Part shown: piece after piece, positions 25,580 through 49,896 of the stretch | Position numbering within the stretch: the first letter of the stretch is position 1 | Layout: each line of letters begins with the position of its first letter | Origin: Verrucomicrobia bacterium UBA7008 | GTDB taxonomy: Bacteria; Verrucomicrobiota; Kiritimatiellia; RFP12; UBA1067 | Reading direction: 5' to 3' | Length of the DNA stretch: 54,284 bases | Assembly: GCA_002449695.1 (NCBI GenBank) | Contig: DJXI01000083.1 | Span: forward strand, 68,871 to 123,154 | The notes under the pieces: model-generated | Told to the model about the DNA's origin: nothing | What the model saw: the letters and a program-made list of their open reading frames with translations, nothing else | Database searches by the model: none | Made by a program: the position numbers and the translations under genes

Positions 25580-25879
25580 ATGACGCTGACCATATACTCC
25601 CCAGACTACGACAAAGACGTTTATGGGGGCGGTTTGAACGGGTGCGTATTCTTGGACGGCGGCAAGGAGGAAAACGGCAGGGGTGCTTTCATAAACTTGC
25701 AAGAGGCACTAAAGTTCGCCGTCGGCGTTGGTCTTCGTCTGGACTCCATCGAGTATATGTACAGGGAGGGGGACGAACAGCTTTTCGTGAAGTTGCCCTT
25801 TAGCATAAACGGTAGTGCGGTCGGCTCTAACCCGACTTGTCAGGGTTCGAGTCCCTGCGGGGCTACCAACAAGAATTGA
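25580..25879 (+). CDS. Small protein whose 3' end overlaps the amber tRNA
   Basis: 99 residues from ATG 25580 (MTLTIYSPDYDKDVYGGG). Residues 1-72 look like a genuine small domain; the last 27 are simply the translation of the tRNA gene (GSNPTCQGSSPCGATN). Processing of the tRNA would cut this message, so a functional protein may end earlier or the gene may be decaying. Ends in TGA. Confidence 0.4.
   Translation: MTLTIYSPDYDKDVYGGGLNGCVFLDGGKEENGRGAFINLQEALKFAVGVGLRLDSIEYMYREGDEQLFVKLPFSINGSAVGSNPTCQGSSPCGATNKN
25794..25868 (+). tRNA. Amber suppressor tRNA, anticodon CUA
   Basis: A 75-base cloverleaf: D arm GCAT/GTGC (25803-25806, 25815-25818) with GG in the loop, anticodon stem GTCGG/CCGAC (25820-25824, 25832-25836) around loop CTCTAAC with CTA at 25827-25829, a 4-base variable region, T arm CAGGG-TTCGAGT-CCCTG (25841-25857), discriminator A and encoded CCA (25866-25868). 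U33, A37, U54U55C56 and G10-C25 are all in place. The acceptor stem (25794-25800 with 25858-25864) has five pairs in the middle but U-U at 1-72 and U-C at 7-66. The short variable arm excludes bacterial Leu, Ser and Tyr tRNAs. It would decode UAG as sense; glutamine is the likely charge but A73 is atypical for tRNA-Gln. It sits 24 bases before the first recoded gene. Confidence 0.9.
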
Positions 25880-25891
25880 AGGATTTAAGAC

Positions 25892-26347
25892 ATGGCTTTA
25901 CTCACAACATACGGAAGCGGGAACAGGGTAATCCTGAACGACAAGACCGTCACTTATTCCAAGACAAGGATTTACGGCGCGTGGTCTTACGTTTCAGGCG
26001 TTTCGATCATTACGCTGGGTTCCGTTTGGGAATATCACAGGTTTTGCTCAAAGACTTATTCGTATGTCGGCATGGACAGGGCAACGGCTCAGTCGTGCGC
26101 TTAGGCCATGATTGCGAAGTACACACGTTCATACGAGGTCAGCGACTGGTACGGTGCTTCCGAGTTCCGTGACATTTCCGGCGGTTCAATCTGCATGGCG
26201 GACATTGTCATCCAGAAAAGGGCTGGTCATATGTACGACGTTGTGATTTCAGTCCGTGAAGATGATTCAAGGAACCGCGTTGCGTCGTACTCTTCTCCAG
26301 AGACCCTTTTCACGATGGAAAACAGGCGCGACTACGACGAGGCGTAA
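25892..26347 (+). CDS. First amber-recoded gene, unknown (tail region?)
   Basis: 151 residues if TAG at 26102-26104 (codon 71) is read as sense; under the standard code it splits into two ORFs in the same frame (25892-26104 and from 26108). Both halves have similar Tyr/Ser-rich beta-type composition and only the joined frame gives a sensible gene with GAAGGA before its ATG and TAA at its end. It follows the suppressor tRNA so closely that both are probably on one transcript. Function unknown; position suggests a virion or host-interaction protein. Confidence 0.75.
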
Positions 26348-26359
26348 GGAGATCGGACA

Positions 26360-26749
26360 ATGGCGAAACCTTCTTATATCCAGACGCTAGAGAAAGGCAA
26401 GTTGCTGACGGGCAAGAACTTCCCAGAGTTCGTGAACACATGGAACTTCGCTGTAAACCGCCTGTAGAACTTAAAGGGGGATAGGGACGCAAACCCTCAG
26501 TCCGGCAAAATTACCGTGGACGAATCCGACCCCGAACACCCAGTGATACGTTTCGTGTCGAGTGCCGCAGAGACAGAAGGAGTCTCAGATACTTTCCCTC
26601 TGGTGACTTCAGTTGAGTGGGATTCAAGCAACTATAAAATTGTCGTGAAGGGAAAGCAGTTCAAGTTTGAAAAAGGGCTCCTCTCAGAAGTCAGCGAAGA
26701 AGAGGAGGAGCTTGGCTACATTGAAACGACACCATGGACAGGGGAGTAA
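26360..26749 (+). CDS. Amber-recoded phage structural-type protein
   Basis: 129 residues with one in-frame TAG (26465-26467, codon 36): ...WNFAVNRL-TAG-NLKGDRDANPQ. The pattern of a short N-terminal TGKNF..FVN.WN followed by LKGD.DANP..G.ITVD..DPEHPVIR is one I associate with small virion or tail-associated proteins, often encoded beside adhesin-like genes. AAGGAGATC precedes the ATG; TAA ends it. The end LGYIETTPWTGE echoes the gene at 24391. Confidence 0.8.
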
Positions 26750-26761
26750 GGGAGAATCATT

Positions 26762-27973
26762 ATGGCGGCACAGGTGACAGTCAGCGTCAACACAAACGGG
26801 CTGGGGACGTATGAAGTGTTCTACGGCTCAGGCGGCGCGTACATAAACTACGCCGAAGTGCATTTCTACCCCGCGCTCGGAGTGACGATAGACTACAAAT
26901 ACCACTACCGGTACACGGTGACGTACAAACCCGAATACGAGAGGGATCCCCAGACTTACGAGAACGACACCACATTCAACGGTTTTACGTGGATGGTTTA
27001 GGACGCGGCCTGCCCGCTCGCAATAAACTGTGCCGCAGGTGGTTCCAGTGCATTTGAGACTATAAGCTGGGAGATAACAATTACGGGAGACGCCAGCGTA
27101 TTTCCGCACAGCGTTGATCCCTCTGGTTCGGGAAGGTTTGTGTGGCTCTACCAAATGGGGGACAGTTACGGGCAGAACTTCAGATTTGAGTGGAAAGTGG
27201 AACCCGTGTTGCCGCGCTACGTCTTCCGCTACATCCGCTTCTACAACAGAGACGAGACGTATGACCAGTATCAGATTGAAAGCGGTTCTTGCAGGAACGT
27301 TGGATATGTCAGGTGCGTCGCCTATTTCTGGGTTCCATACGTGACTGTGACTTTCGACCCGAACGGTGGTCAGGTTTCGCCCACGACGAAGGAGGTTGTC
27401 GTAAACGACCCCTACGGCATACTCCCCGTTCCAACTTACGCCGGACACACGTTTCTCGGATGGTACACGTCGCTCGGAAGCAGAGGAACGCTTGTCACCG
27501 CTGAAACAGTCTGCACCAAGAATTACGATCACACGGTTTACGCGAAATGGGAAACAAACAAAGTCGAAGTGACCGTCATCCCGTATGACCGAAAGGGTCA
27601 CAAGTATCTGGAGTTTGGAACGGCCCCCGTCGGCTCGTACTTCTTTTATCCATCAAGCGACCAGAGGGAGGAGACCGAGGATTGCGGACAACAGGGGACG
27701 AAGCACAAATACATTTTTCGAATGGACGCTGGCTCGTACAGCTATTTGTACGTTTACGACAGCGGCACGAAGTACAGATTGAAGGAGATCACGAAGGACG
27801 GTTCCATGTACGACAACGGCGACACGTTCTATCCGTATGCAGACACGGAGATGATCGTCAACTTCGAGGGCAATCATGAGTTTACATACCTCCCGATGTA
27901 CGACGCCGACAGCGGAATCTTGTTGAGGGGAGTTCGGAACGTGTTGGTTATCAGGGACGGCGACGAGGAATGA
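26762..27973 (+). CDS. Amber-recoded adhesin-like protein with InlB B-type repeat
   Basis: 403 residues with TAG at 26999-27001 (codon 80). Residues 198-262 carry a Listeria-Bacteroides (InlB B / Flg_new) repeat: VTFDPNGGQVSPTTKEVVV, later GHTFLGWYTS and HTVYAKWE. Such repeats are usual in surface adhesins and occur in phage proteins that bind cell surfaces. The flanking sequence is Tyr- and aromatic-rich beta structure. Starts 12 bases after the previous stop with a GGGAGAA site; ends in TGA. Confidence 0.85.
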
Positions 27974-27985
27974 AGGGGGCGAACG

Positions 27986-28168
27986 ATGGAGTGGATGTAG
28001 GGAGAAGTCGAGACAACAAGAAGGTGCAGGGCGACTGTCTGGAATTGGCGCAACGAAATTGTGGCTGAGTTTGGTGATGCTGAATCCGCGTGGAGATACG
28101 TGTGCGCTGATCCTGAGTTGCGTGAGAACTTCGTCATCGAGGTGCGGACGTTGAAGTATGCGCTGTGA
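27986..28168 (+). CDS. Small amber-recoded protein, TAG at codon 5
   Basis: 60 residues: MEWM-TAG-GEVETTRRC..., ending LRENFVIEVRTLKYAL and TGA. AAGGGGGC precedes the ATG. Under the standard code nothing but a tetrapeptide would be made, so expression is fully dependent on amber suppression. It closes the first recoded cluster. Function unknown. Confidence 0.65.
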
Positions 28169-28207
28169 GTTGAAAGGCCGGGCAAAAACATTTTTGCGGA
28201 GACCCCC

Positions 28208-28237
28208 TTGCCGCTCAAACGGTGAGTATGGTATAAT
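28208..28237 (+). promoter_or_regulatory. Promoter of the replication-like module
   Basis: TTGCCG (28208-28213), an 18-bp spacer and a perfect TATAAT (28232-28237). It lies about 200 bases before the coiled-coil gene at 28446; the leader between holds no gene on the plus strand. Confidence 0.7.
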
Positions 28238-28445
28238 ACTCTCGTTGCTGGCAAAAAGAAAATCCGCCCGTCAGCACTGTCATAGAGAAATATAGAGGCG
28301 GCCTCATGCGCGAGGTTGTGTTCTTTTAGAAGTTTCTTTGGCGCACTTCCAGACATAGTTTGTGTCGTTTGGCATATTTACTGCTTGTGTCTACTTATCC
28401 ACCAAAGGCTCATCACAAAAACGAGCCGCACCAAAGAAGAAAAAA

Positions 28446-28793
28446 ATGAAGAATACCAAATTCAAGCCACAGTATGAAGAACTGGTTGACCTCGCTCGTC
28501 TTTCTGGCGTCCTGGAGGAGAAGCTTTCGTTTGCGGAGTTCTGCGGACTCCCTACGGAGCTTTATTCTCTGAGCAAGGTCGCTGGCTACGTAGGTGAACT
28601 CACCAAGCGCATCGAGGTTATGGAACACTTACTTGACGCTTCCGGGGATTCTCTTTACAGCCGCATCAGCAAAGACATCGACGCACTTTTTGAGCGCTAC
28701 AATCTTCTGACTGATCGCATCAACGAGAAGGACGAAGAGGCCAAAGCCAGCAGCAAGCAGAAGTCCGCCAAGCCCAAGACGAACAACAAATAG
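28446..28793 (+). CDS. Coiled-coil protein ending in TAG
   Basis: 115 residues (MKNTKFKPQYEELVDLARL), with an amphipathic coiled coil in the second half and a Lys-rich tail. It ends in TAG (28791-28793), and a hairpin begins 22 bases later, so TAG is the natural stop; read-through would add 33 residues. AAGAAGAAAAAA lies upstream. Function unknown; first gene of the replication-like module. Confidence 0.65.
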   Translation: MKNTKFKPQYEELVDLARLSGVLEEKLSFAEFCGLPTELYSLSKVAGYVGELTKRIEVMEHLLDASGDSLYSRISKDIDALFERYNLLTDRINEKDEEAKASSKQKSAKPKTNNK

Positions 28794-28814
28794 TCCACAC
28801 ATTCGACTGGATCA

Positions 28815-28851
28815 ACTGTCCCGTGGTTCCGTTTGTGTTCCACGGGGCAGT
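28815..28851. terminator. Hairpin after the coiled-coil gene
   Basis: ACTGTCCCGTGG pairs with CCACGGGGCAGT (12 bp with one wobble) around a 13-base loop. No T-run follows directly, so termination strength is uncertain. The stretch to 29021 holds further GC-rich inverted repeats but no gene. Confidence 0.55.
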
Positions 28852-29021
28852 CCTCACCAAATTTTTTAGATATAGTCACTTCCTCGTCGGTTAATTTCAA
28901 GCCCGCCTACCGACGTCTATTTTGACATATACCATACGGCGGCAACGGCTCGGTAACGCTCCACGGGTCGCCTCGCTTCTGACATATTCGATCAGAACGG
29001 GAGCGACTTTTGAGAGGTTAC

Positions 29022-29312
29022 ATGACAACTTTTTACAACTCGTTCTCTGCCGCTGACGTCATCAACGACCCTGCGGCTGAGGCTGAACAGATCGAAGAGT
29101 ACGCCTCGCAGTTTGTCGAGCCTGTTCAGTTCGGCCTTAAAACAAAACTCAAGACGATCAGCGAGATTGCTGGCAACGCCCTGTTAATGCTTTCAAGCTT
29201 CCATGTCAAAGGAAAAGCTCATTGGGCTTACGACGGCGTTGCCGATGCACTCACCCAAGTCAAAAACTTAAGCATTGAGGAAACTGTCACCAAGAAACTG
29301 GGGGGCAAATAA
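29022..29312 (+). CDS. Small helical phage protein
   Basis: 96 residues, MTTFYNSFSAADVINDPAAEAEQIEEYASQ..., acidic and helical. GAGAGGTT precedes the ATG at 29022. It is separated from the next gene by one base. Ends in TAA. Function unknown; probably part of DNA metabolism by position. Confidence 0.65.
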   Translation: MTTFYNSFSAADVINDPAAEAEQIEEYASQFVEPVQFGLKTKLKTISEIAGNALLMLSSFHVKGKAHWAYDGVADALTQVKNLSIEETVTKKLGGK

Positions 29313-29313
29313 G

Positions 29314-29595
29314 ATGAAGGAAAAGAACGCATACATCTCCATCAGCGACATAGAGGATTTGACGTTCGGCACGATGAAGAACCAGCATAAACACAACGCC
29401 CGCACATACGGGTTTGCACGTTTCCGCATCTGCGACAGCTATTTGGTCACGGCTCCCGAGTGGATCGAGGGCTACGAACTTCTCAAAGGCTACGTGCCCG
29501 GCACAGCTCTGAGGATTGAGTGGGGTCAGTACAAATCGAAATCCGGTCGCGTCTACAATGACGTCCAGACGATCCGCCTCAATGGGGGGGCGTGA
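29314..29595 (+). CDS. Small basic phage protein
   Basis: 93 residues (MKEKNAYISISDIEDLTFG...). The pattern W.EGYELLKGYVPGTALRIEWGQYKSKSGRVYNDV suggests a small beta-barrel that could bind nucleic acid, but no family is recognised. Starts one base after the previous stop, so coupled. Ends in TGA. Confidence 0.6.
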   Translation: MKEKNAYISISDIEDLTFGTMKNQHKHNARTYGFARFRICDSYLVTAPEWIEGYELLKGYVPGTALRIEWGQYKSKSGRVYNDVQTIRLNGGA

Positions 29596-29611
29596 GGAAA
29601 AAAGACTTTGC

Positions 29612-29654
29612 TTGAAAAGACCGTGTGGTGCCTATACATATTCACTATGTATAG
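29612..29654 (+). promoter_or_regulatory. Promoter overlapped by a perfect 9-bp palindromic operator
   Basis: CTATACATA (29632-29640), five bases TTCAC, then TATGTATAG (29646-29654): a perfect inverted repeat. A TTGAAA at 29612-29617 and TATACA at 29633-29638 (15-bp spacer) place the putative -10 within the left half-site. The rest of the 230-bp gap before 29826 is AT-rich without a gene. Confidence 0.55.
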
Positions 29655-29825
29655 ACCTGAGCTTTAAATGACGCCCGAAAGTCTATATATATTGATCATG
29701 AGGGTTCTGTTTTTGAAAAAGCACTTAAAATGATCGCCAGTTCTACCATGGCAAAAAGACTTTGAAATTTGTCACTCCAACAAATCGAGACCCAAACGTA
29801 ACAAATTTGAAAATAGAAACGAGAC

Positions 29826-31478
29826 ATGAAAAACCATCCATCAACAGCCCGCCCAAAAAACAAAGGCAAGTCACGTAGCCGCAAGGCAACCGAGGATGAT
29901 TTCTTCGCCATGATCTCCGAGGCGGTGCAGGTCAGGGAGAAAGTCGTGCCTCTTCGCAAGCTCCACAAGAGTCTGTTGAAGGCACATGACGTAGCCGGAG
30001 CCAGAGAAGTCCGCGCCGCAATTCAGGGTCTGCTGTCCGGCAACATGGATCCCTCTTCTGTCAGCAAAACGACACACGGCCTTTTGACCGCCGAACCAGA
30101 ATTCGTACAGTGGGCGGAATCCGAGTTTGCGGACGCCTGCCAGTCGAAGGCGGAAGTCCTGTCAAGAATCTCCCCGAGGTTCAAGGCGAAGAAGTACGTC
30201 GCAGAAACCGTTGCCAAGCTGGGTGCGTTCTGCGACCAGTACAAGTTCCTCCCTCACCTCTCCATCATTCGGGTCAGCACTGTCGGCGGTGCCATGTTCC
30301 GCATCTTCAAGAGCCAGACCGTTGTTTCCCGCTTGCTAAAGGAGGCCGAGAAGATCGGACTGGTCAAGACTGTCGATCAAAGCTACTCCAACACCCAGCA
30401 CTACGTGAAGACCCGTTTGCTCAACAAGAACGTCCTCCACTTCTGCATGGAGCTTGTCGCAGACTTCAATATCAATCCGGCAAACAACGAACTGCTACAA
30501 CGTGCAAGGTTTGTGCGGAACTACGTTGAGGGCGAGGAGTCATACGACCAGTCAACGGAGGAGGCTGAAAAGTTCGACGCCGACTTTGTGGACAATACTT
30601 TCAACGTGGACTTCTCCGCTGGCCTTCGCGTCGCTGGCTGTTCTGACAAACAGGCCCTGGCACTTGTCCACGCCAAGTATCCGCAACTCATGGAGACGCA
30701 GAAAATCATTGACGAAGACAATCTCAGTCTCCCTACGGAGTGTCAGGTTTCCTTCCGCCCGAACATTACTCGTTCCAAGTCAGGCTTCATCACGAAGATA
30801 GGCATAAGGGCTTGTTCGCCGTTCTGCGGCTATCCGTCGCGCACCAAGGCACTTGAATTGAAGAAGGACGTCTCCAAGTTCAACGGCGTCTGGAGGGAGG
30901 ACTATGTAAGAGACCATTTTCTCAAAAATGGTGTCACGCAGTTCTGCGAGTATGATGTTTCCGCGTCTATCTACACTCTCAACTACTTCAAGCAGACTGG
31001 CGAATGGGTTGATGGCGACACCTACGAACTGATGTTCGGCGGGAGGCTGTCTTCGGACAGGCGCAACCTCTACAAGCACAACTTTTCCATGCAGGGCATG
31101 TTCGACTGGTCTGCCCGTTCCATCTACGCGAAGCTCTCCGAGTATCTTGTGCGCTTCAACAACGCACACTCGGACTTGTCCCGTGTCGAGGACGGCAGGG
31201 TTGTCACATACGCCGAACAGCTCATCACCCACTACCGTGACAGGCTTCAAACACTCATGAACAACTCAAACAAGTCCACCTCAATCTTCTTGGACGAAAG
31301 CTGTGTCTATGCCATCGTAGCTCACGTACTACGTCAACATGGTTACGACGTCTTGCAGGTCTATGACTGCTTCTGGGTCGGGAAAAAAGACTATTACATT
31401 GACAGGGACTTTGTGAACGATGTGGTCAAGAAGGTTGCCAAGTGGTATTTCAATAAGTATTACGGACAAAAAAAGTAG
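29826..31478 (+). CDS. Putative replication protein, polymerase-like
   Basis: 550 residues with a basic N-terminus. Two motifs suggest a palm-type nucleotidyl-transferase: YDVSASIYTL...G-DTYELMFGG near residues 374-400 (motif A-like: acidic, Ser, aromatic, then GDxY) and VLQVYDCFW near 509-517 (motif C-like, as in the HD/YDxF of phage replicases). No full family match can be claimed. Followed by an SSB-like gene, consistent with replication. Ends in TAG (31476-31478), with read-through adding only 17 residues, so TAG is read as stop here. No internal TAG in 550 codons. Confidence 0.45.
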   Translation: MKNHPSTARPKNKGKSRSRKATEDDFFAMISEAVQVREKVVPLRKLHKSLLKAHDVAGAREVRAAIQGLLSGNMDPSSVSKTTHGLLTAEPEFVQWAESEFADACQSKAEVLSRISPRFKAKKYVAETVAKLGAFCDQYKFLPHLSIIRVSTVGGAMFRIFKSQTVVSRLLKEAEKIGLVKTVDQSYSNTQHYVKTRLLNKNVLHFCMELVADFNINPANNELLQRARFVRNYVEGEESYDQSTEEAEKFDADFVDNTFNVDFSAGLRVAGCSDKQALALVHAKYPQLMETQKIIDEDNLSLPTECQVSFRPNITRSKSGFITKIGIRACSPFCGYPSRTKALELKKDVSKFNGVWREDYVRDHFLKNGVTQFCEYDVSASIYTLNYFKQTGEWVDGDTYELMFGGRLSSDRRNLYKHNFSMQGMFDWSARSIYAKLSEYLVRFNNAHSDLSRVEDGRVVTYAEQLITHYRDRLQTLMNNSNKSTSIFLDESCVYAIVAHVLRQHGYDVLQVYDCFWVGKKDYYIDRDFVNDVVKKVAKWYFNKYYGQKK

Positions 31479-31490
31479 GCAAAAAAAAAA

Positions 31491-31526
31491 GTCATAATGA
31501 TTACGTTGTCACTACATCATTATGAC
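31491..31526. terminator. 11-bp hairpin after the polymerase-like gene
   Basis: GTCATAATGAT (31491-31501) and ATCATTATGAC (31516-31526) form a perfect stem around a 14-base loop. An A10 run lies just before it, i.e. a T-run for the minus strand, so it could be a terminator for either direction or an operator. The remainder up to 31697 shows no gene. Confidence 0.5.
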
Positions 31527-31697
31527 CCATAATAACACACACCTTTACTGATGTTTTGCCTGACGCCCACGAACAAATTGTAACCTGTACAGTCCAAGGA
31601 TTTTGCATCTCGTTTTACCTTGGGCTTGCAGGTTCCTTTGGCCTCACTTACTTCACAAAAAAAACTAATAAATAAAAAACACAAAATGAGGTATATC

Positions 31698-32303
31698 ATG
31701 AACAAGAAAACTATTCAGGTCAGACGCATAATCAAACACACAAACAACACGGCAGACGGACGCACGTTCAATGTGACGTTCGTAAATGCAAGCGACGGCA
31801 ATTCATACACGGCCTACGAGACCACTCCCGGACGCGAGCTTCTAAAGGAAGGTGCAACGGTGACTCTCACGTTCAAAGAGAATTCGTCAAACGGCAAAAA
31901 GTATTTCAACTGCACCTGCGTCCAAGCGGCCACACAACAATCAACACAACCAACACAGCCAACACAACCAACGCAGACTCCAACACAACAGACAACACAG
32001 TCAACTTCCAAAGTTCCTTCCACTGCACAGGTCATTGTTCCACACAGGGCAAATACATCAAGCGTTCCTACAGTTCAACTCATTCTGGAGTCTCTTAACA
32101 ACCTTGCTGGACTTGTGGGTGAGGTGTTGGACAGGGTGAAGAAACTTGAAGCGGAAGTCAAACACACCAATACAAATGAGAAGCAACAGACGAAACCGAC
32201 GCAAACAACACAAACAACCCAAACAGATATTCCGCCTCTGCCGGACGTTGCAGAAGAAGACCTGTGCCACGCCAACATAAGCGAAGATGATTTGCCATTT
32301 TAA
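31698..32303 (+). CDS. Single-stranded-DNA-binding-like protein
   Basis: 201 residues. The first 75 (MNKKTIQVRRIIKHTNNTADGRTFNVTFVN...) have OB-fold-like alternating beta pattern. Residues 76-100 are a repetitive Thr/Gln/Pro linker (TQPTQPTQPTQ), then a short helix and a second Thr/Gln linker, and the protein ends in NISEDDLPF. An acidic tip ending in Leu/Ile-Pro-Phe is the hallmark of SSB proteins and their docking site for partners. The N-terminus is divergent, so identity is inferred chiefly from architecture and position. Ends in TAA. Confidence 0.6.
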   Translation: MNKKTIQVRRIIKHTNNTADGRTFNVTFVNASDGNSYTAYETTPGRELLKEGATVTLTFKENSSNGKKYFNCTCVQAATQQSTQPTQPTQPTQTPTQQTTQSTSKVPSTAQVIVPHRANTSSVPTVQLILESLNNLAGLVGEVLDRVKKLEAEVKHTNTNEKQQTKPTQTTQTTQTDIPPLPDVAEEDLCHANISEDDLPF

Positions 32304-32320
32304 GGGGAGCGGTAGCAGAC

Positions 32321-32638
32321 ATGAAGAGTAGCAGAAAGCATAATAAGCCAATGAGCGAAGAGGCAAAAGCCAAACAACGTTCAACCCACTTGGGAAGTTA
32401 GAACGGCATGTATGGCAAGCACCATACACAGGCCACAAGGAAACTAATATCAGACCGTCTACGTGGTCATTGTGTAAGCGAAGCTACAAGACTAAAGATG
32501 AGCCAGACACAAAGACAAAGGCTGGCTCGTCTCAGCACGTCTATCCCCCGACCGAGGTTCTTCCCGAAGGAAAGTCAGGAAGAAAGGACCATCGAACGAA
32601 CTGACCTTCACCCCACCGAAAATCTATTGCAGAAATGA
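32321..32638 (+). CDS. Amber-recoded NUMOD3-type DNA-binding protein
   Basis: 105 residues with TAG at 32399-32401 (codon 27) inside the motif HLGS-TAG-NGMYGKHHTQATRKLIS, which is the NUMOD3 pattern (G.xNpmyGk.hs..trkkis) found in homing endonucleases and as free DNA-binding modules. No GIY-YIG or HNH nuclease domain accompanies it. It overlaps the terminase start (ATGA), so it occupies the usual place of the small terminase subunit and may act as one, or be a remnant of a homing endonuclease. Ends in TGA. Confidence 0.75.
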
Positions 32639-34695: not shown

Positions 34696-34697
34696 GT

Positions 34698-35324: not shown

Positions 35325-35330
35325 GCGGTT

Positions 35331-35338
35331 ATTATATC
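35331..35338 (-). promoter_or_regulatory. Leaderless-type promoter of the moron
   Basis: Minus strand TGATATAAT, with TATAAT at 35336-35331, then six bases and the ATG at 35324. The transcript should begin at or next to the start codon. Confidence 0.6.
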
Positions 35339-35404
35339 ATAACCATTACGCAGAGGTTGTCAGAACAAATACCAAAGTCAAAACATTCAGAGGATCGGAA
35401 CGTG

Positions 35405-35686: not shown

Positions 35687-35692
35687 CAGGAT

Positions 35693-39257: not shown

Positions 39258-39289
39258 AAAGGCCCCTTGCCGAATGGCGGGGGTCTTTT
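39258..39289 (+). terminator. Hairpin after the capsid gene
   Basis: AAAGGCCCC pairs with GGGGTCTTT (one wobble) and ends in TTTT. Probably an attenuating terminator that lowers expression of the downstream tail genes. Confidence 0.6.
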
Positions 39290-39313
39290 GTCTACGACAG
39301 ATAGGGAACGAAT

Positions 39314-40140: not shown

Positions 40141-40144
40141 AAAG

Positions 40145-40849: not shown

Positions 40850-40857
40850 GGTCTGGC

Positions 40858-41673: not shown

Positions 41674-41675
41674 AC

Positions 41676-42386
41676 ATGGTTTCAAGACTTGCAAAGGAGA
41701 CTGTCGAGAAGTGGAAGTCCGAGGGGCTTGAACCGACGTTCGAGGACTGCATAAGGCTGAACGCCCTTGGCCTAAAGGTCGAAGGAGGGCCGTCTGCATA
41801 CGAGTTCGGGGCAGTGCCGAGAACGGCGTTTCTGGGTGACTACGTTTTCACGGAACCAACAGTGGCGAAGAGAATGTGGATCGAAAGCGCGATGAAACTC
41901 CTGTAGGACGATTACTCAAACCAGTTGTGCCTCACGGCCTTCGCCCTCAACTGCCCCCCAAGCGAACTCCCAGACCTGACCAACGTTTCAAGGCTGGTAA
42001 AGGCAGTGAGGGATTTCAGGGACGAGGTTCTTTCAAACTACACGGAGACCCAGATCGTGACCTGTATCGAGTACGCGCTGAGGGGGGACGAACGGGAAGA
42101 CACAGAGGGGTCGGGAACAAATCTAAACTCGGACAAAGACGTTTCGGAACTACCCGACTGCGCGAGGAGCGTGACAAGGCAGGTCTTGGAGGAGGCATTG
42201 AGCTACGGGATCGACGCCAAGGCAAAGGAGGAAGTCACGTTGCCGCAACTTGAAAGGATCGTGATGCTTGCGGCCCTGCACAGCGGAACGGACGTCTTGA
42301 AGGGAGAACACGCTTAGGCCGTCGGTGCGTTCTACCATGAGTGTGGAAGGATTCACGAAAGGCTGACGGCTGATCAGGAGAAATGA
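41676..42386 (+). CDS. Tail assembly chaperone-region protein (amber-recoded, two TAG)
   Basis: 236 residues with TAG at 41904 and 42315 (codons 77, 214). Helical, Leu/Glu-rich; sits directly before the tape measure where tail assembly chaperones are found. AAAGGAG eight bases upstream sets the ATG at 41676. No slippery heptamer for frameshifting was noticed. Ends in TGA one base before the next ATG. Confidence 0.65.
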
Positions 42387-42387
42387 C

Positions 42388-44169
42388 ATGGCACGTGGAG
42401 ACATCAACCTTCACATAGGGACAACGTACAGAGACGACGGTTTCAGGAAGCTGAACAACGCGCTAAAGGCTTCAAGCGGAAACATGAAGAAGGCTTCCTC
42501 AATGGTCAATCAGGTGGTCGGCGGACTCGGAGACATGGACAGCAAGGCCGGAAAGGTTGTCGGCACTATGGGGAACCTTCTTGGAAGCTTCGCGTCCATG
42601 GGCGTTGCCGGACTCGTCATAGGAGGGATCAGCACGGCGTTCCAGCTCGTCACCAACAAGATCAACGAGTCGAAAAGAGCAGTGAAGGAAATGGGTGAGG
42701 CCATCAAGAACAGGCTCCTTGCAGCTATGGGAGACGCAGAGGCAAAGGCAACTATCCTTTAGAAGAGCTTTCAGAAGATTCAGGATGGGTTGAAGCTCTC
42801 CCATTCCGACAGGGAAGGAGCGGAAGACCGCAAGGCCCAGGACGAGGCGAACAGGATAAGGGCCAAGCACATAGGCGACCGTTCAAAGATGACAGACGAA
42901 CGTCAGGTACAGTTGGACAAGGCGAGGGAGCAGTACGAGACTGGAGCCGTCAGGGAGGAAAGAATACTGGAGAAGGCAAAGGCCAAGTGGAAGCTCGCCT
43001 CAGACCTATTGGAAGCGAAGAAGAAGGAACAGGAGGCAACGGCAAAGGCTCTGGAGAAGGCGTTGGAGGACGAGAAGAAGGTAATAGAGAAGTCTGCCGC
43101 GTACCTGAACGAGAAGAAGCGTCTTGAACAGGGCGGAGACCATATGAGGAAGCTGGCGAAGGAAAGACCGTGGGAGGCTTGGAAGTGGAACCAGCAGGCC
43201 GGAAAGTTCGACGCCGCCTTGGAGAAGCACGAAAAGGAAAACTCTGGTGATGTCGAAAGGATCAAACGCGCTTCAAAGATAGTGGCTGACGCACAGGAGA
43301 GAAACAGAAAGGCCGTGGAGGAGTCAACAAGGCTTGAAACGGAACTCGCACAGGCAAAGGAAGTCGTGAAGTCCGCCGTCCTACAGCACGACGCAAACAT
43401 CAAGGCGTTGGACGAGGCGTTTAGGGAACAGCAGAGAGCCGTCGCCAAGAGCATCGAGGCCGAGAAGAAACACACAGAAGAGGAAAAGAAAAGAGAGGAA
43501 GCCGAACGGAAGAGAAAACAGGAGGAGGAGAGGCGCAAGCTCGAACAGGAACAGGACAGGGCCAACAGGCGTAAGATACGGGAGATCGAAAACGCGACCG
43601 TCAAGAAGATGGCCGAAATGCTGCCTGCAATAGAGCAGATGAAGAAGGCCGCTCAGGAATGGTCTGAAAAGGCCAAGGACGCCTCCGGCAAGACGTTCAA
43701 CCAGTGGAAGGCGGACGAGAGGAAGAAACAGCGCGAACAAGACCGGGAGGTAAACGCCAAGGTCAAGAACATCGGTCAGGCGGAGGACAGGAGACGCCAC
43801 CTTGGAGAAAGGATATTCGACAGGCGCGGACGGGTAAAGAAGACAGCCAACGCAAGGGACATAGAGGAGTTCAGGCAACTTGGAGAGTTCATCAACCTGT
43901 AGTCCAGCAACGACCCCAAGCTAAGGGAAGCCGCTTTGAGGGAACAGGACAGGATCGGAAAGAGAATCTTCGACAGGAACGGGCGTCTGAGGCGTTCCGC
44001 AAACAAACAGGACGTACAGCGTTGGAAAGACCTGTAGAGAAACTTTGTGAAGCCCGACAACCCCGTTCAGGACTTGAAGAAGATGGAAGAGGAGAAGAAC
44101 AAGTTTGCCAAGCAACAGGCCGAGGACATCAAGACCATCAGGGACAAGCTCGACAAGCTGGGCCTTTGA
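42388..44169 (+). CDS. Tail tape measure protein (amber-recoded, three TAG)
   Basis: 593 residues with TAG at 42760, 43900 and 44035 (codons 125, 505, 550). A hydrophobic segment (VVGTMGNLLGSFASMGVAGLVIGGI, partly, near 52-76) is followed by long Lys/Glu-rich coiled coil (residues 150-430), then basic helices with the repeated phrase ERIFDRRGR / KRIFDRNGR. Length would set a tail of moderate size, so the phage is siphovirus-like. Ends in TGA overlapping the next start (TGATG). Confidence 0.85.
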
Positions 44170-46082
44170 TGAAAAAACTAAAACACCATTCAGGAAAGAA
44201 ACATATGATAGGAACATTGGACATCGAGGTACAGGCGTAGAGGCCGAACGTTCCGCTTGAAACCCTGTACGCCTTCATTGAATCGCCTTCAAGCATACGG
44301 GTCAGGAACGTACCCGAAAGGGTCGGGAAGTGGAACATCACAAAGGTCTACGTCAAGCTACAGTACCCCGACAACACGGAACGCGAGTGCGTCTGCGTCT
44401 GCGACAACGGCGTCTACGTATGTACGGTTGAGGGATCTGGAAGGTCTGGACGCCAGCCGAAGGGATATTCGGTAATGGCGGACGGAGTTGACGAAAACGG
44501 AAGAGGGGTCTTCGGCTACGTACTCGGAAAGGGAGACGTAGCCATAATGGACGAAAACGGCTCTGTCACTGTGGACGGGGTTTCGTATATGATCCACTAC
44601 TTCGACGAAAGGCCAGAGAACCCGAACATCGGAGACGTATGCAGGGGCGAGGATGGATGGGAAATGTTCAACGGCGTGCAGTGGGTGGTCTTCGGAGGGA
44701 TCGAGTACGAGGCCGGAGAGGGACTTGCCCTAAACGGAAACACGTTCTCGCTCGACGCCACAATACCCACAAAGACGTCACAGCTTGAAAATGACTCCGG
44801 CTTCACAACGGCATAGGACATACCGACAAAGGTATCAGAACTCCAGAACGACTCCGGCTTCACGACTGCCGAGGACATACCGACAAAGGTCTCCGAGCTT
44901 GAAAACGATTCCGGCTACCTGACACAGCACCAGAGTCTTTCAAACTACCTGTAGCTCACGGGCGGGACGCTCACCGGAAATCTCACACTCGGAGAAAACT
45001 CGCACATAATCTTCGGCGCGACTCCAAGGATTGACGCACGGTATGGAGACAGGTTCATGACCTGGAGGTTCCCCAATGTCACCGGCACATTCGCCCTCGA
45101 CGCTGACGTGCAGAACCTCTCGGCTAACAAGGCAGAAGCAGAGGTCGAGTCCCTTCACAGGACGGTCGCTGGCGGCATCTTCTGGGATGAAAATGTGACT
45201 GCCGAAACGGACATAGTTGTGGAGGGAAGCGGAGCGTTCACCGACCTGTACAACACGTACTCAGCGACGATGACGGATGCCGGCTACACGATTACCTGCA
45301 CACGCAATCGCGGCAGTACCACAAGGGAGACCATCAGAAACACTACAAAGGGAACGGCGGCACAGGGTACAGGTTCACTCTTCTTCGAGTTCGGTGACTA
45401 CGGCTCGATATGGGACGGCGACGAGGATCGGGATCAGATATGGGTGATGAAGGACGTTCGCGTTCCTATGGGCGAAAGGACGCTGACGGTAAAACAGTCC
45501 GTTGACAAGGGCTTGTCTGGAAAGCTCGACGTTACCACAATCGGAACCTATGCCGAGGCATCGACCCCAAACAACAATTCAAGTCTGTGGGGAATAAGGT
45601 TCAAGCCAAGGGCCTTCGGGATGGAAGACGGCGACTGCATCATCGGTTTTACCATAAGAACCCGTCTCTCCACGGGGACGCCACAGCCAGACGTTCCCAT
45701 TTACTACAAACTCATAGACCACTCTTCCGGCTCAGACGTGGTTCTTGCCACGGTACGTGAGCCTAAAATGGTGAACGTGTGGAACACTGACGTGTCGTTT
45801 GGTTTCGACCGCCTTGTATGTCTCGACAAGGACAAGGAGTACAGGCTTCTCTCCTATTCAAGTGTCACGGCCACCAGTTCAACAAACGTAGGGATCAGGA
45901 TGACGCCCAATTCAACCAATACGGACATCTACGGCAACAATGACACAAGCTATAGACCTGTAATGCGCGTCGAGTGGGGAAGAGGGTCGGGGCTGAGGGA
46001 AATAGCGGCAAGACTTGAAAACCACTACACCAAGAGCGAAGTGGACAGTATGCTACAAAGTCTCAGGGAGGAGCTTTCGTAA
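44169..46082 (+). CDS. Tail fibre/tip protein (amber-recoded, three TAG)
   Basis: 637 residues with TAG at 44238, 44814 and 44952 (codons 24, 216, 262). Residues 195-260 carry tandem repeats of the fibre type, IPTKTSQLENDSGFTTA then DIPTKVSELQNDSGF and again DIPTKVSELENDSG, followed by SNYL-TAG-LTGGTLTGNLTL, a classical phage fibre motif. The 44814 TAG aligns with a GAG codon in the next repeat. The C-terminal 330 residues are a beta-rich receptor-binding-type region ending in a trimeric coiled-coil-like LENHYTKSEVDSMLQSLREEL. Ends in TAA overlapping the next gene. Confidence 0.9.
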
Positions 46083-46339
46083 TGGACGAGCAGACAAAGC
46101 TGTTTATAGACATCAGCCGCAACTTGGGAGAGATCAACTCAAAGCTCGGCTCCCTGTGTGAAGTCATAGCGAAGCACGAATCGAGGATCACGGAACTTGA
46201 GAAAGACAAGGTTGGTGTCAGCGGTCTCCATTTCAAAGAGCTTGCAGTGTGGCTCGTAAAGGGTCTTATAATCGCACTTGGAACGATAGCCACAATGACA
46301 GGTTCCGCGTCATTGATCAAGGGCATCTTTGGGATGTGA
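46082..46339 (+). CDS. Holin-like protein
   Basis: 85 residues. An N-terminal coiled coil (LGEINSKLGSLCEVIAKHE, then RITELEKDK) is followed by one membrane segment (LAVWLVKGLIIALGTIATM) and a short tail. This arrangement resembles XhlA-type hemolysin/holin accessory proteins. It is coupled to the fibre gene. No TAG, ends in TGA. No endolysin is recognised next to it. Confidence 0.65.
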   Translation: MDEQTKLFIDISRNLGEINSKLGSLCEVIAKHESRITELEKDKVGVSGLHFKELAVWLVKGLIIALGTIATMTGSASLIKGIFGM

Positions 46340-46637
46340 GTCTGGCTCTCGCGCAAAAAAAATTTTGAAAAAGTTTTCCCCCTTGAAAACATTGGTCGAT
46401 CCGAACGTCGATCGGTGATTTCATCCGCACCTTCGGCAATGTTTTCAGAGTCAAGCCCCCCGACTTTTCTGAAACTCACCCTTGATTTTACTGCCGAAGG
46501 TCGGCGTCGCTCACTGAAAAATGGCTTTTCCAAAAACAGCATTTCGTATAATAGTGTCAGTTCTTTGGAACTACATTCGATCTTTGACATACGAGTTGGC
46601 CACACAACACACACAACACACAAGAAAGGAAAAGCAG
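46340..46637. promoter_or_regulatory. Intergenic stretch with inverted repeats and a promoter
   Basis: An A/T-rich tract (46359-46383) follows the holin gene. ACCTTCGGCA (46430-46439) and TGCCGAAGGT (46492-46501) form a 10-bp inverted repeat enclosing a smaller TTCAG/CTGAA stem. TATAAT at 46551-46556 is a likely promoter for the next gene. No coding sequence seen. Confidence 0.45.
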
Positions 46638-47273
46638 ATGAAGAAGAAACAAGAACGAACAACACCTCCGATGCCGTCGTACAGGATTGGCAGGTTCATA
46701 CAGTACGGAGGGGAGTCGGAACCGAAGTTCAGGCCAGCACACGAGATCGGCTATGATGCGGCGTATGACTTCTTCCGTGACCTGTACTGGAACGACCGAA
46801 AGGAGGCTGAAGACCAGTTGGCGGAGTACAAGAGACTCTGGAAGGAGAAGGCCGTGAAGGGTTCCTCCTACATAGCCGACACCGACCCGGAGCTTGGAGA
46901 GCGGTTCAAACGCCGTGCTTGTACTCAGGAGGACTGCCGGAAGCCCTACTACGAGAAGATGAGGGAGGCAAGTTCAGCGGTTGAGAAGTGGGAGTGGTTC
47001 AAGGACTTCATCATAGGGGACTGGACTGAACCCGCAACGGTCTACCGCCAGAACACCCTGCCTTCGGAAAACAACTGGGCCGGAGAGGAGATGCGGAAGG
47101 AGATAATCCAGAAGCTCGACTGGTACGGCTACGTCACGGTCGGGTGGAGCTGTCTCGGACATACCCGTGCAAGGTGGCAGACAGATTCCGTCTGCGACTG
47201 GGTGAAGAGGGAGCATCCTGAGTGGAAGGTGGTGAACAACGAGTTCGACTGCACCATAACAAAGAAGGCGTGA
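46638..47273 (+). CDS. Hypothetical protein after the holin
   Basis: 211 residues (MKKKQERTTPPMPSYRIGRF), highly charged, rich in Trp and Tyr. The only structured hint is KLDWYGYVTVGWSCLGHTRARW near residue 160. AGAAAGGAAAAGC before the ATG. No lysozyme, amidase or peptidase motif is visible although the location would suit an endolysin. No TAG inside; ends in TGA. Confidence 0.6.
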   Translation: MKKKQERTTPPMPSYRIGRFIQYGGESEPKFRPAHEIGYDAAYDFFRDLYWNDRKEAEDQLAEYKRLWKEKAVKGSSYIADTDPELGERFKRRACTQEDCRKPYYEKMREASSAVEKWEWFKDFIIGDWTEPATVYRQNTLPSENNWAGEEMRKEIIQKLDWYGYVTVGWSCLGHTRARWQTDSVCDWVKREHPEWKVVNNEFDCTITKKA

Positions 47274-47345
47274 GTCACATACAGACTCAAACCGGGACGC
47301 CATGTAGGACTATGACAGGTTCTGCACGACGTCCTTTTTCATGAC

Positions 47346-47819
47346 TCAATACAAACTATCGGATGGAATACAAAAAGCGAACATGACGCGTTGTGGGGCC
47401 CGATTCTGCCGAGGGAGTTGCCGAGACGGACGTGAGCGATGGGCAATGATTCCTGTTAATGCCCAAGTCAATCCAAGAAGAATCCATGTCATCAGTACGA
47501 GGGTCGCTTTCTTTTTGGTGTTTCGGACGAACGCCACTACGAGGCCGGAAGCAAGCCAAGCAAGGAGAACTGAGGAACCTCCTGGGGAAAAGACTGCTGG
47601 CATTCTGGATAGGCATAGCATGAGTATTACCGTGGAGGTTGTCGGGAGAGGCCAAAGCCTTGGAAAGAACACAGTCATGAAGAATATGGATGCCCCGAGA
47701 ACGTTCATAAGAGTCAGACGCAAAGAGAAATTAGGGGGGTAATAAGATGGCGCACAAAACGCTGTCGTGATTAAAACTGTTGCTGCAAGGAAGAATGTCA
47801 GGTCAATGTTTTTCTTCAT
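47346..47819 (-). CDS. Small membrane protein
   Basis: 157 residues with four hydrophobic segments: LTFFLAATVLITTAFCA, LMNVLGASIFFMTVFF, VLLAWLASGLVVAFV and LVLMTWILLGLTWALTGII. The opposite strand is also open (47341-47742) but encodes an Arg-rich, low-complexity product typical of antisense to membrane genes, so the minus strand is preferred. Ends in TGA. Function unknown, perhaps superinfection exclusion. Confidence 0.55.
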   Translation of the reverse strand: MKKNIDLTFFLAATVLITTAFCAPSYYPPNFSLRLTLMNVLGASIFFMTVFFPRLWPLPTTSTVILMLCLSRMPAVFSPGGSSVLLAWLASGLVVAFVRNTKKKATLVLMTWILLGLTWALTGIIAHRSRPSRQLPRQNRAPQRVMFAFCIPSDSLY

Positions 47820-47849
47820 GGTGATTTATGATGTTGTTTGGTGATGGTT

Positions 47850-47884
47850 GAAAAGGCGGGTTACGGGATTAAACCGCAACCCGC
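47850..47884 (-). terminator. Terminator of the minus-strand accessory operon
   Basis: Read on the minus strand, GCGGGTT-G-CGG and CCG-T-AACCCGC form a stem with one mismatch, followed by CTTTTC. It separates the operon from the membrane gene at 47346-47819. Confidence 0.6.
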
Positions 47885-47896
47885 ACAAGTTAGTTG

Positions 47897-47983
47897 TCAA
47901 CGCCAATCATCTGGCGTGAGGGTATCTGTGCCGAAGATATCTTCGTTCACTATGACTTCGTCATCTGGGGAATAGCCTCTCAT
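47897..47983 (-). CDS. 28-residue acidic peptide with a perfect RBS
   Basis: MRGYSPDDEVIVNEDIFGTD... ending in DDWR and TGA. A full AAAGGAGGTGA site lies seven bases before the ATG, a strong reason to regard it as translated. It is the last gene of the minus-strand operon, just before its terminator. Function unknown. Confidence 0.5.
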   Translation of the reverse strand: MRGYSPDDEVIVNEDIFGTDTLTPDDWR

Positions 47984-48030
47984 TTTTGTCACCTCCTTTC
48001 GTCGTTTTATGTGTTGGCTTTGTTGGTGAG

Positions 48031-48318
48031 TCAATCGCCCATGTCGATACGAACTGCCACATCGAAGAGCCTGTTATGACAGGCACGAAGCGCCAGCATC
48101 ACAACCTCGTCTTTTGTCGGAATCTTCTCAAGCGTCCTGAAGCGTTCGACAAAGAACTTGGCCTTGGCAAAGTTGCTGGGCCCTTTCAGTGCCGCTGTTT
48201 GTGTCTGCCAATTCCCGCCCTCACAAAGATACTGTGCAGCGCAGAAATTCTCCAACATTTGAATTTCCCTCTTCATGGTCTTTAGAGAGGCGTTATGGGT
48301 TATGGACAGCGATGACAT
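48031..48318 (-). CDS. Hypothetical protein of the minus-strand operon
   Basis: 95 residues starting MSSLSITHNASLKTMKREIQ; helical. The ATG at 48318 overlaps the TAA of the gene before (TAATG), and the AGGAGG ribosome-binding site lies within that gene's 3' end, so translation is coupled. Ends in TGA. Function unknown. Confidence 0.65.
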   Translation of the reverse strand: MSSLSITHNASLKTMKREIQMLENFCAAQYLCEGGNWQTQTAALKGPSNFAKAKFFVERFRTLEKIPTKDEVVMLALRACHNRLFDVAVRIDMGD

Positions 48319-48653
48319 TATGACCTCCTTTTGTGTGTTGGAAGTTTGTGTGGATAGGTCGGGTCGTCGTCTTCGGCTACTATCTCTCTGAGCGAAAGAG
48401 CGCCCCATTCAGAACTGACGCAAAGCTCGGACACTATCACACCAGCTTTGTGGGCGACATCACAGAGCTGTTCTGCAATGTCCTCCAACGTGGCGTCCCT
48501 CCATATCTTGCGGTTCGCGGACAGCTTGCTCAAGACTGCGGGTGTGCAGTCAAGCAGCACCCGCGATATGGCGTTTGACTCAGCCTGGCGTATGACAAGA
48601 ATCTTGCCGTTCTTGCCAGAGGCCGCACGGCTCAAGGCCTTTTGAAAGTCCAT
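48318..48653 (-). CDS. Hypothetical protein of the minus-strand operon
   Basis: 111 residues (MDFQKALSRAASGKNGKILVIRQ). An alpha/beta-looking core with VLLDCTPAVLSKL and ATLEDIAEQLCDVAHKAGVIV. GGGGAGGTGAAC precedes the ATG; the previous gene stops six bases before. Ends in TAA. No family recognised. Confidence 0.65.
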   Translation of the reverse strand: MDFQKALSRAASGKNGKILVIRQAESNAISRVLLDCTPAVLSKLSANRKIWRDATLEDIAEQLCDVAHKAGVIVSELCVSSEWGALSLREIVAEDDDPTYPHKLPTHKRRS

Positions 48654-48656
48654 TGT

Positions 48657-49394
48657 TCACCTCCCCGCGGTAAAAAGTGGTAGGCAAATTACTTCTGATA
48701 GTAGCCCGCCCGACTCGACTCTGTTGCCTCTGATGGTGACACGGTGGATGCGACGCTGAACCTCTGGCGTGTTGATGTTGGGAAAGCGACGCAATAATTC
48801 AGTTGACGAATATTTGTCCGACCCCGTGATGAGAATCGCCGTCGGGTTTTGAAGCAAAATAGAGAAACAAGCGATGTCAGCATTCTGCTTCTCAAGGCCG
48901 AAATCATAGACTCTGCGCGTCCAGCCGGAACGAGCATTTATAGCAGAGATTGCACGGGCGGAAGGTGTGTGGCGGTCGTAGGCCTTCCTCCTTGAGCAGG
49001 GGTCGGCCACGAGAAACGGGCGGTATCTTGCCTCTACGCCAAGAGAGACACTGACGCAGGTCGTGGCGCCAAAATGCCAGTTAGCGGGGTCGGAGGAGCC
49101 CTCTCCGGCGGAAGCCACATTACTTTCATCTATCAAAGCGATTGGTCTTGTGTCGGGACGTTGTAATGGCGGAAGAACTTCGGCGTCGTAGATTTCGCCA
49201 ACGAACGTTCCTCCTCTCAGACGGCGGTGGAGTACGACCGTAGTGTATTGTCCGTAGAGGAGTTCAGGTCTCCTGTTAACATGTGCGAGACAGCCATCTT
49301 CAAGACGAACATCCGTCCCACGTTGAGTTTGTGCGCAGACCCACCCGCGCCCGAAGGCCGGAAGGTCGAAGGTTGACTTTTGAAGAGTTGACAT
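48657..49394 (-). CDS. Possible NYN-domain (PIN-like) ribonuclease
   Basis: 245 residues. The C-terminal 170 show PIALIDESNVASAG, then EKQNADIACFSILL and AILITGSDKYSSTELLRRFPNI. The Asp-x-x-Asn, the NAD and the TGSD blocks are reminiscent of NYN/PIN-like nucleases, which cut RNA with metal ions, but the match is weak. The first gene of the operon, preceded by AGGAGGGG and a structured leader. Ends in TGA. It could act on RNA in the lysogen or in defence (inference). Confidence 0.45.
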   Translation of the reverse strand: MSTLQKSTFDLPAFGRGWVCAQTQRGTDVRLEDGCLAHVNRRPELLYGQYTTVVLHRRLRGGTFVGEIYDAEVLPPLQRPDTRPIALIDESNVASAGEGSSDPANWHFGATTCVSVSLGVEARYRPFLVADPCSRRKAYDRHTPSARAISAINARSGWTRRVYDFGLEKQNADIACFSILLQNPTAILITGSDKYSSTELLRRFPNINTPEVQRRIHRVTIRGNRVESGGLLSEVICLPLFTAGR

Positions 49395-49423
49395 TTAGTG
49401 CCCCTCCTGAAATGGATTACGAA

Positions 49424-49480
49424 CGGAACCCAGTAGATACGGAGAGGCGCGGTGGAAGCCAGTAGACGACTGGGTTCGGA
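49424..49480 (-). promoter_or_regulatory. Leader with mutually exclusive hairpins
   Basis: On the minus strand AACCCAGT can pair either with the distant ACTGGGTT or, through CCAGT, with the nearby ACTGG. The two hairpins cannot form together, and the second lies just upstream of the ribosome-binding site of the operon. This is the layout of an attenuator or translational switch. Confidence 0.35.
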
Positions 49481-49519
49481 ACCGCATGCCAACTTAAAAG
49501 CCTCAGTTAGCACGCACAT

Positions 49520-49549
49520 ATGATACCATATTTGGTTCTCGCCGCGCAA
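49520..49549 (-). promoter_or_regulatory. Promoter of the minus-strand operon
   Basis: Minus strand TTGCGC (49549-49544), 18-bp spacer, TATCAT (49525-49520). It gives a leader of about 120 bases before the ATG at 49394. Confidence 0.6.
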
Positions 49550-49587
49550 GGGGGTATTTGAAAAAATTTTTGGGCTTGCTAACTGTC

Positions 49588-49896
49588 TCAAATCCTCATC
49601 CTATTCAAAGCCGTCTGGAACAACTCCGGGCGGTTTTGTTTTAGCCACTCTGAAAACCATATCGGGTTCTGGTGTGCAGACAGTCTTCCAAACTTGTGGT
49701 GAGACGGACAAAGAGAAATTCCGTTGTCAACTTCAAGCCTGTACTCTTTCCACAGATGTTTTGGAAGAATGTGATGGGCGTTCAAGTGTTCTGCCTTGCC
49801 ACATACAGCACAAACGTCCCCGTCTCTCTAACGGACTTGCCTTGACCAGTTTGAAAGAAGTGTTGAGACGGAAGGTTTCTTGATTATGTTTGCCAT
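49588..49896 (-). CDS. HNH endonuclease (amber-recoded, minus strand)
   Basis: 102 residues with TAG at 49830-49828 (codon 23). The complete HNH fold appears only in the read-through product: WSRQVR-TAG-RDGDVCAVCGK, then HLNAHHILP, NGISLCPSHHKFG. Two CxxC-type zinc knuckles and the AHHI catalytic histidine are present. The TAG stands where HNH enzymes usually have Glu, Gln or Lys (VRxRDG). Phage HNH enzymes often assist terminase in DNA packaging, so a late role fits its recoding. AAAGGAACC before the ATG; ends in TGA. The 240-bp gap before 50140 shows no gene. Confidence 0.9.

Follow-up and report, generated by a model that had tools for sequence, protein, structure and literature searches.

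In-frame TAG codons in the late genes of a predicted temperate phage integrated in a Kiritimatiellae bacterium and carrying its own CUA suppressor tRNA

Introduction

Gut phages in which TAG serves as a sense codon, together with recoded prophages of hosts that keep the standard code, were reportedly described by Borges et al. (2022, Nat Microbiol 7:918). Known phages and prophages of this type share with the element described here the reading of TAG as glutamine (Gln), which is likely in the present case, the concentration of these codons in late structural genes, a standard-code host and, in some of them, a suppressor tRNA. The present element is a predicted temperate tailed phage, integrated within a window of 54,284 nucleotides (the whole stretch of DNA analyzed, to which all coordinates refer) of Verrucomicrobia bacterium UBA7008. 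It differs from the known recoded phages in its Kiritimatiellae host, in its small size (38.6 kb) and location within yifB, and in having relatives whose integrase genes end in TAG.

Recoded prophages have already been published for hosts with the standard code, according to a source that cites Borges et al. 2022 (PMC10746230); hence, the integrated state, which a preliminary description of this DNA made from its sequence alone contrasted with recoding known mainly from lytic phages, is not new. Alternative codes have been reported for 38 of 10,742 pig-gut prophages (PMC12454387) and code 15 for crAss-like phages (PMC10858875), and suppressor tRNAs and late genes have been treated elsewhere (PMC13059738). 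Further papers state that mass spectrometry of other recoded phages shows Gln at TAG (PMC9523058), that a matching tRNA occurs in just 13% of 285 TAG-recoded genomes and that regions of one genome may differ in code (PMC9610469), and that the figures for recoded phages with a matching tRNA are 35/40% for TGA/TAG (PMC10136315). A limited literature search joining Kiritimatiell-, prophage and genetic code found nothing, and the host group is called new on the basis of that negative result only. The kind of phage is thus already known, and the element is a well-supported further example of it; new are the host group, the anatomy on one contig, and a recoded sister clade in which tRNAs went undetected.

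Results

In-frame TAG codons are confined to the late half of the element

Translation with genetic code 15 gives 21 late genes on the plus strand (25892-47273), 17 of which hold a total of 29 in-frame TAG codons (Table 1); one further TAG lies in a minus-strand HNH endonuclease gene (at 49828), and the uncertain TAG that would be the second codon of 47302-47742 is left out of the count. The 17 TAG-bearing genes contain no internal TAA or TGA, their frames hold to a normal stop, and the 21 late genes end in TGA (11) or TAA (10), never in TAG. As in code 15 phages, therefore, TAG stands inside conserved genes that continue in frame and are closed by TAA or TGA. It accounts for 29 of 276 Gln-type codons in the late genes versus 0 of 99 in the 22 early genes (Fisher p 1.2e-4); this difference, together with homologues that span the sites, excludes a chance origin of the in-frame TAGs.

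Homologues that are open in code 11 align straight across the TAG sites. Real gene ends at these sites, which the preliminary description had named as evidence that would count against its reading, were looked for, and the homologues run through instead. When the joined code 15 proteins were compared to phage families, as it had proposed, the terminase, portal, protease, head protein and HNH endonuclease were recognized; their PHROG matches extend across TAG codons, while the Pfam HNH match begins only past the TAG. Its tally of 27 TAGs in 17 genes was slightly low, and its statement that the recoded genes all stop at TAA or TGA agrees with the present map. The family matches likewise bear out three TAGs each in terminase and portal and one each in the ClpP-type protease and HNH gene, as well as its capsid with one TAG, recognized through a weak PHROG match. 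Its tape measure and fibre labels were not confirmed, since no tail or fibre family was matched by the candidate proteins in PHROG or Pfam. Among other late genes, 42388-44169 has full-length homologues, and 26762-27973 encodes a List-Bact repeat domain; the other genes of 25892-31532 are without assigned function. Annotation in code 11 chops such late genes into pieces.

Glutamine is favored at the TAG sites

Of the 310 homologues collected for the portal and the 154 for the terminase, the best 120 in each case served for counting the residues opposite the TAG sites, the window's own terminase fragment being dropped; for the protein starting at 42388, five proteins were found and four remained after the window's own fragment was removed. 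Of the portal homologues, 113 of 120 have Gln at TAG49, and 92 of 112 have it at TAG19. In the 42388 protein, it is found at TAG505 in 4/4, at TAG550 in 3/4 and at TAG125 in 1/4 homologues, and at terminase TAG137 it is present in 24 of 117 homologues, yet in all five of the closest. Across nine gene families, the columns holding TAG in the window phage or 12 relatives (see below) contain Gln in 442 of 1,975 cells of 15 standard-coded phages, cells that are not independent of one another; this is 22.4% versus a background of 3.6%, a 6.2-fold enrichment, with glutamate as runner-up at 1.8-fold. Standard-coded homologues therefore carry Gln at TAG columns, as code 15 implies, though not at every site, suggesting that Gln is most likely the residue inserted at TAG in the late genes.

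A suppressor tRNA gene at the border of early and late genes

ARAGORN predicted a single tRNA in the window, with anticodon CUA, located at the border of the early and late genes; the element thus has its own amber suppressor tRNA gene. The preliminary description had reported this gene and had named its absence from covariance models as evidence that would count against its reading; the RF00005 model gives the gene 49.1 bits (gathering score 29). In a comparison with 32 distinct host predictions, from 30 of 38 tRNA hits, the nearest host tRNA by alignment score was tRNA-Gln(CUG), at 26.0 versus 20.5 for the runner-up. The two have U1, G2-C71 and A73 in common, which we take to be identity elements for glutaminyl-tRNA synthetase (GlnRS). 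The host GlnRS was recognized at 673 bits (cut-off 426), and this enzyme is predicted to charge the CUA tRNA with Gln.

With the pattern used, the window's genome was alone among 161 of the host's order in showing a CUA tRNA. Matches to the anticodon pattern as such occurred in 79 of the 161 genomes; besides the window's tRNA, the listed ones were set aside because they resemble tRNA-Arg(UCU), which also reads TCTAA, an identity confirmed with ARAGORN for seven matches and judged by eye for the rest.

The prophage splits yifB in a host that uses TAG as a stop

The element occupies 38.6 kb within host yifB and is bounded by two 11-bp attachment (att) cores, TCGTTCGCGAT, at 12490-12500 and 51055-51065. 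On both sides of the prophage, the core is contained in the coding sequence for the YifB peptide SSFAIVGLPD, and the YifB N-terminus is unbroken in the seven relatives inspected (L064-L070), indicating that the prophage splits the gene. On the phage side of attL, comparison of 12481-12560 with 51046-51125 showed a diverged copy of yifB coding sequence past the core (GLPDQAVRE versus GLPDAAVKE in the host), the frame of which soon stops, leaving yifB split. Host genes flank the element on both sides, and an integrase, terminase, portal and head genes lie between the att repeats, which makes it, by gene content, a predicted integrated temperate tailed phage, as had been described; the interval first assigned to it (25794..49896) covers only the recoded half and falls short of the full element. 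Neither PHROG nor Pfam identified a lysis gene among the proteins scanned.

The assembly is 2.52 Mb in size and 82% complete, with the window on a 145-kb contig. The host is a Kiritimatiellae bacterium. Four Kiritimatiellae metagenome-assembled genomes and one of the Verrucomicrobia supply its five best YifB relatives, at 73-77% identity, followed by two at 70-71%, and the sample sources of the Kiritimatiellae matches include goat, sheep and yak gut. TAG is the stop of 53 of 212 host open reading frames (ORFs; at least 150 aa, in 400 kb) and of a tadA-like gene that adjoins the prophage, in agreement with the earlier statement that the host uses TAG as a stop; its release factor 1 (RF1) is encoded outside the element. 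A downstream-extension control on the host ORFs proved uninformative at high GC, and the stop counts alone were kept. Between tadA and yifB, at 12285-12346, there are tandem 11-nt repeats of AATCTTAAGA type.

Recoded relatives in IMG/VR

A scan of IMG/VR with the portal alignment retrieved 14 loci; in 13 of these records, late homologues contain in-frame TAG, and other stops in the matched stretches of the 13 are limited to two TGA and one TAA. In 12 recoded relatives (a near copy, G167, having been dropped), late homologues have 197 TAG versus 939 CAG and CAA codons (197/1136), whereas the lysogeny homologues, namely the integrase and four others, have 0/101 (p 1.7e-8). The phages of the 13 recoded records (L174-L186, records G161-G173) resemble the window phage in portal (52-58% identity), terminase (up to 54%) and late TAG recoding, and differ from it in that no CUA tRNA was detected and in branching apart from it in the portal tree.

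A tyrosine integrase is present in 10 of the 14 records, and nine of these are recoded (nine of the 13 recoded records). Five of the nine recoded integrases end at TAG (G162, G163, G168, G169 and G173; L212, L214, L222, L224 and L233), and the other four at TAA or TGA; four of the five stop exactly where the window's integrase does and one two residues short. In all five, a TGA or TAA follows 2-6 codons further on, so that a Gln reading of the TAG would give a slightly longer integrase. For a few late TAGs close to C-termini, both readings are conceivable (in the terminase of G162, G163 and G169 and the portal of G169).

Terminal repeats of 116-127 bases make four recoded relatives (G162, G164, G165 and G170) look circular and complete. 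A search of 13 records found no release factor domain. The 14 records gave three tRNA-like matches, namely one in G163 (anticodon UGC) and weak ones in G168 and in the standard-coded G174; ARAGORN at lowered thresholds returned only noise, a pattern for tRNAs of the window type found none in IMG/VR, and CUA-like hairpins matched by regular expression in the relatives were unconvincing. The UGC tRNA-like gene of G163 lies at L199 102-176, and the weaker copy in G168 at L200 109-174, followed by a GIY-YIG-like frame; both are close to the terminase end of their record. Five recoded records (L231, L224, L232, L230 and L228) start 66-378 bases before the terminase match, like a physical genome end. 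G166 (L220, L221) has 60% GC and only three sense TAGs in aligned genes, of which two coincide with TAG codons of other recoded phages; its terminase is split between the two ends of the record, with one piece on each strand, perhaps through misassembly.

TAG recurs at the same codon among the relatives in 181 shared pairs versus 91 expected, which was not taken as selection because shared descent yields the same result. Scans with single sequences (terminase against IMG/VR viral contigs, portal against genome contigs) found no relative, and a scan with the terminase alignment largely recovered the records already obtained and added two that are more distant, L266 and L267.

Standard-coded kin and the portal tree

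A portal match at 1e-60 or below was obtained in 15 of the 345 genomes of the class, and only the window's portal has an internal TAG. The closest kin, a prophage in G121 from the host's bacterial family, is similar to the window phage in portal (59% identity), head protein (64%), terminase (51%) and integrase (43%); unlike it, the G121 prophage is standard-coded, with no TAG inside its nine aligned late genes. In a portal tree of 64 rows, representing one gene, the 12 recoded relatives and five database proteins form one branch (support 100/99), with the window phage outside it among portals that are open in code 11. The tree requires five changes of recoding label, four of them forced by well-supported branches, and a constraint grouping all recoded rows with the five database proteins was rejected (p-AU 0.0003), suggesting that recoding probably changed more than once in these phages. 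The constrained group was partly defined after the tree had been seen, and recoded close kin would escape because the database proteins come from code 11 predictions; moreover, a TAG-free portal does not prove a standard-coded phage, as G166 illustrates.

Early genes and a candidate control region

The early half encodes, besides the integrase, a DNA methyltransferase, an endonuclease and a cpYpsA gene, and four of its 22 genes end in TAG (15176, 16827, 23900 and 25215). At 18000-20000, GC drops to 44%, from about 50-54% around it; this block comprises the end of the DNA methyltransferase gene, a minus-strand PHROG 28628 gene and the endonuclease, and is perhaps mobile cargo. The strongly folding intergenic stretch that separates the early genes from the tRNA contains the inverted repeats GGGTTCGTCCG / CGGACGAACCC inside a 17-nt outer pair, and none of 100 shuffles equaled its predicted RNA fold; it is a possible control region.

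Table 1. Positions of the prophage, its genes and a host translation gene in the window
Feature	Coordinates	Strand	Basis and remarks
Host release factor 1, outside element	4994..6262	+	NF001859 426 bits (cut-off 400); TIGR00019 414 bits, just below cut-off 423
Whole prophage between att cores TCGTTCGCGAT	12490..51065	.	Core repeat, SSFAIVGLPD both sides, whole YifB in relatives
Tyrosine integrase	12813..14000	+	PHROG 1, PF00589; no internal TAG, TAA end
Early genes, standard code: 20 genes (22 including integrase and 25580-25879)	14082..25215	.	None of the 99 Gln-type codons in the 22 is TAG
Structured intergenic stretch, early genes to tRNA	25216..25579	+	Nested inverted repeats; RNA fold z -4.2
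Suppressor tRNA, anticodon CUA, CCA encoded	25794..25868	+	ARAGORN, covariance model; overlaps 3' end of ORF 25580-25879
TAG-bearing genes ahead of terminase	25892..31532	+	Sense TAG 26102, 26465, 26999, 28293, 28356, 28791, 31476
NUMOD3 homing-endonuclease-like piece	32321..32638	+	TAG 32399
Terminase large subunit	32635..34695	+	PHROG 38 over 28-434, PF20454 over 407-659; TAG 32689, 33043, 34507
Head-tail adaptor-like gene (weak match)	35357..35686	+	PHROG 118, E 7e-4; TAG 35417
Portal protein	35693..37315	+	PHROG 21 over 16-535, PF05136; TAG 35747, 35837, 36746, all three crossed by homologues
ClpP-type head maturation protease	37312..38379	+	PHROG 94, PF00574; TAG 37645
Major head protein	38295..39242	+	PHROG 283 (weak); 64% identical homologue in G121; TAG 38598
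Further late genes	39655..46082	+	Sense TAG 39691, 40436, 40918, 41374, 41904, 42315, 42760, 43900, 44035, 44238, 44814, 44952
HNH endonuclease	49588..50283	-	PHROG 144 over 147-197; PF13391 from 158; TAG at codon 152 (49828)

Discussion

The explanation favored here, and held with reasonable confidence, is that an integrated temperate phage, with TAG in 17 of its 21 late genes, reads this codon as Gln through its own tRNA, charged by the host GlnRS, such that its late proteins wait for the tRNA. In this scheme, host GlnRS would charge the phage CUA tRNA with Gln, and the tRNA would compete with host RF1 at TAG. The tRNA and the late operon would be silent in the lysogen, and the late proteins would stay incomplete until the tRNA is made, constituting a timing gate. 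Timing control of the late genes by TAG is predicted and considered likely. In lysogeny genes, TAG appears to remain a stop: the TAG ends of four of the 22 early genes and five of the nine recoded integrases suggest one reading in lysogeny and another late in the lytic cycle.

Several observations weigh against parts of this explanation. At portal TAG352, glutamate is found in 105 of 120 homologues and Gln in one; at terminase TAG19, leucine is found in 32 of 71 and Gln in seven; and terminase TAG625 (n=113) is opposite mainly lysine (47), arginine (31) and leucine (20). The acceptor stem of the CUA tRNA has mismatches at 1-72 and 7-66, and by raw identity the host tRNAs for Thr(CGU), Lys and Met (55, 54 and 53 positions) are closer to it than that for Gln (51). 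Within the window alone, the difference in TAG ends between early (4/22) and late genes (0/21) is not significant (p 0.11), and the integrase of the standard-coded G121 phage also ends in TAG, so that a TAG-ended integrase is ordinary stop use and need not be special. In relatives with genes called, TAG also occurs between the lysogeny genes and the terminase, so that the border does not strictly follow the virion genes. No promoter- or terminator-like sites were listed in 25216-25579, just upstream of the tRNA, and regulation can thus only be inferred. Lastly, related recoded phages seem to do without such a gene, as a tRNA search in the circular-looking G162, G164, G165 and G170 found none.

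That late TAG encodes Gln and yet has no timing role, the suppressor tRNA having been gained and CAG having then drifted neutrally by C-to-T change, is an unlikely but serious alternative. It would account for the CAG codons that other recoded relatives have opposite TAG at conserved Gln columns, for a TAG number that varies from 3 to 37 in aligned genes of close relatives, and for the TAG-free gene set of the standard-coded G121; the split between 0/101 in lysogeny and 197/1136 in late homologues, however, exceeds what drift would be expected to produce, unless suppression is confined to late infection. Rather improbable is a reading of TAG mainly by another decoder, either a suppressor from the host or a co-resident element, or a near-cognate tRNA-Gln with RF1 restrained. 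The four circular-looking relatives, with 6 to 21 TAGs in aligned genes and no tRNA found, point in this direction, as do the missing release factor domain in the 13 records and the low published rates of matching tRNAs cited above (PMC9610469; PMC10136315). Against it stand the canonical CUA tRNA at the early/late border of the window phage and the restriction of the CUA tRNA pattern to the window's genome among the 161 of the order, and the relatives may hold a very divergent or split tRNA.

A decaying prophage that gathered nonsense mutations in its late genes would fit an element integrated in a standard-coded host; this is highly improbable and was rejected, as it is contradicted by a TAG-only pattern (29 TAG, no internal TAA or TGA, 17 genes in frame to a normal stop) that falls on Gln columns and is repeated in 13 other records. 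Pyrrolysine, suggested by the CUA anticodon and by the tRNA-Pyl label in the ARAGORN output, is hardly credible and was likewise rejected: the TAG columns favor Gln, and the best match to pyrrolysyl-tRNA synthetase in the 82% complete genome reached 28.9 bits versus a cut-off of 178.

Returning to Gln inserted by the phage's own tRNA, a broader proposal can be advanced only tentatively: that one phage family took two routes to recoding, with its own CUA tRNA in the window phage and without a phage tRNA or release factor in a sister clade of complete genomes. In both, TAG would still close the lysogeny genes, including the integrase, such that it would act as a lysis-lysogeny switch, and the decoder in the sister clade would be something other than a phage tRNA gene.

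The element extends stop-codon recoding of prophages to the Kiritimatiellae. It constitutes a compact case of such recoding, in which a single contig shows both the recoded and the standard half together with the suppressor tRNA and the attachment site. With its sister clade lacking detectable tRNAs, the way in which tRNA-less recoded phages decode TAG becomes a concrete and testable question.

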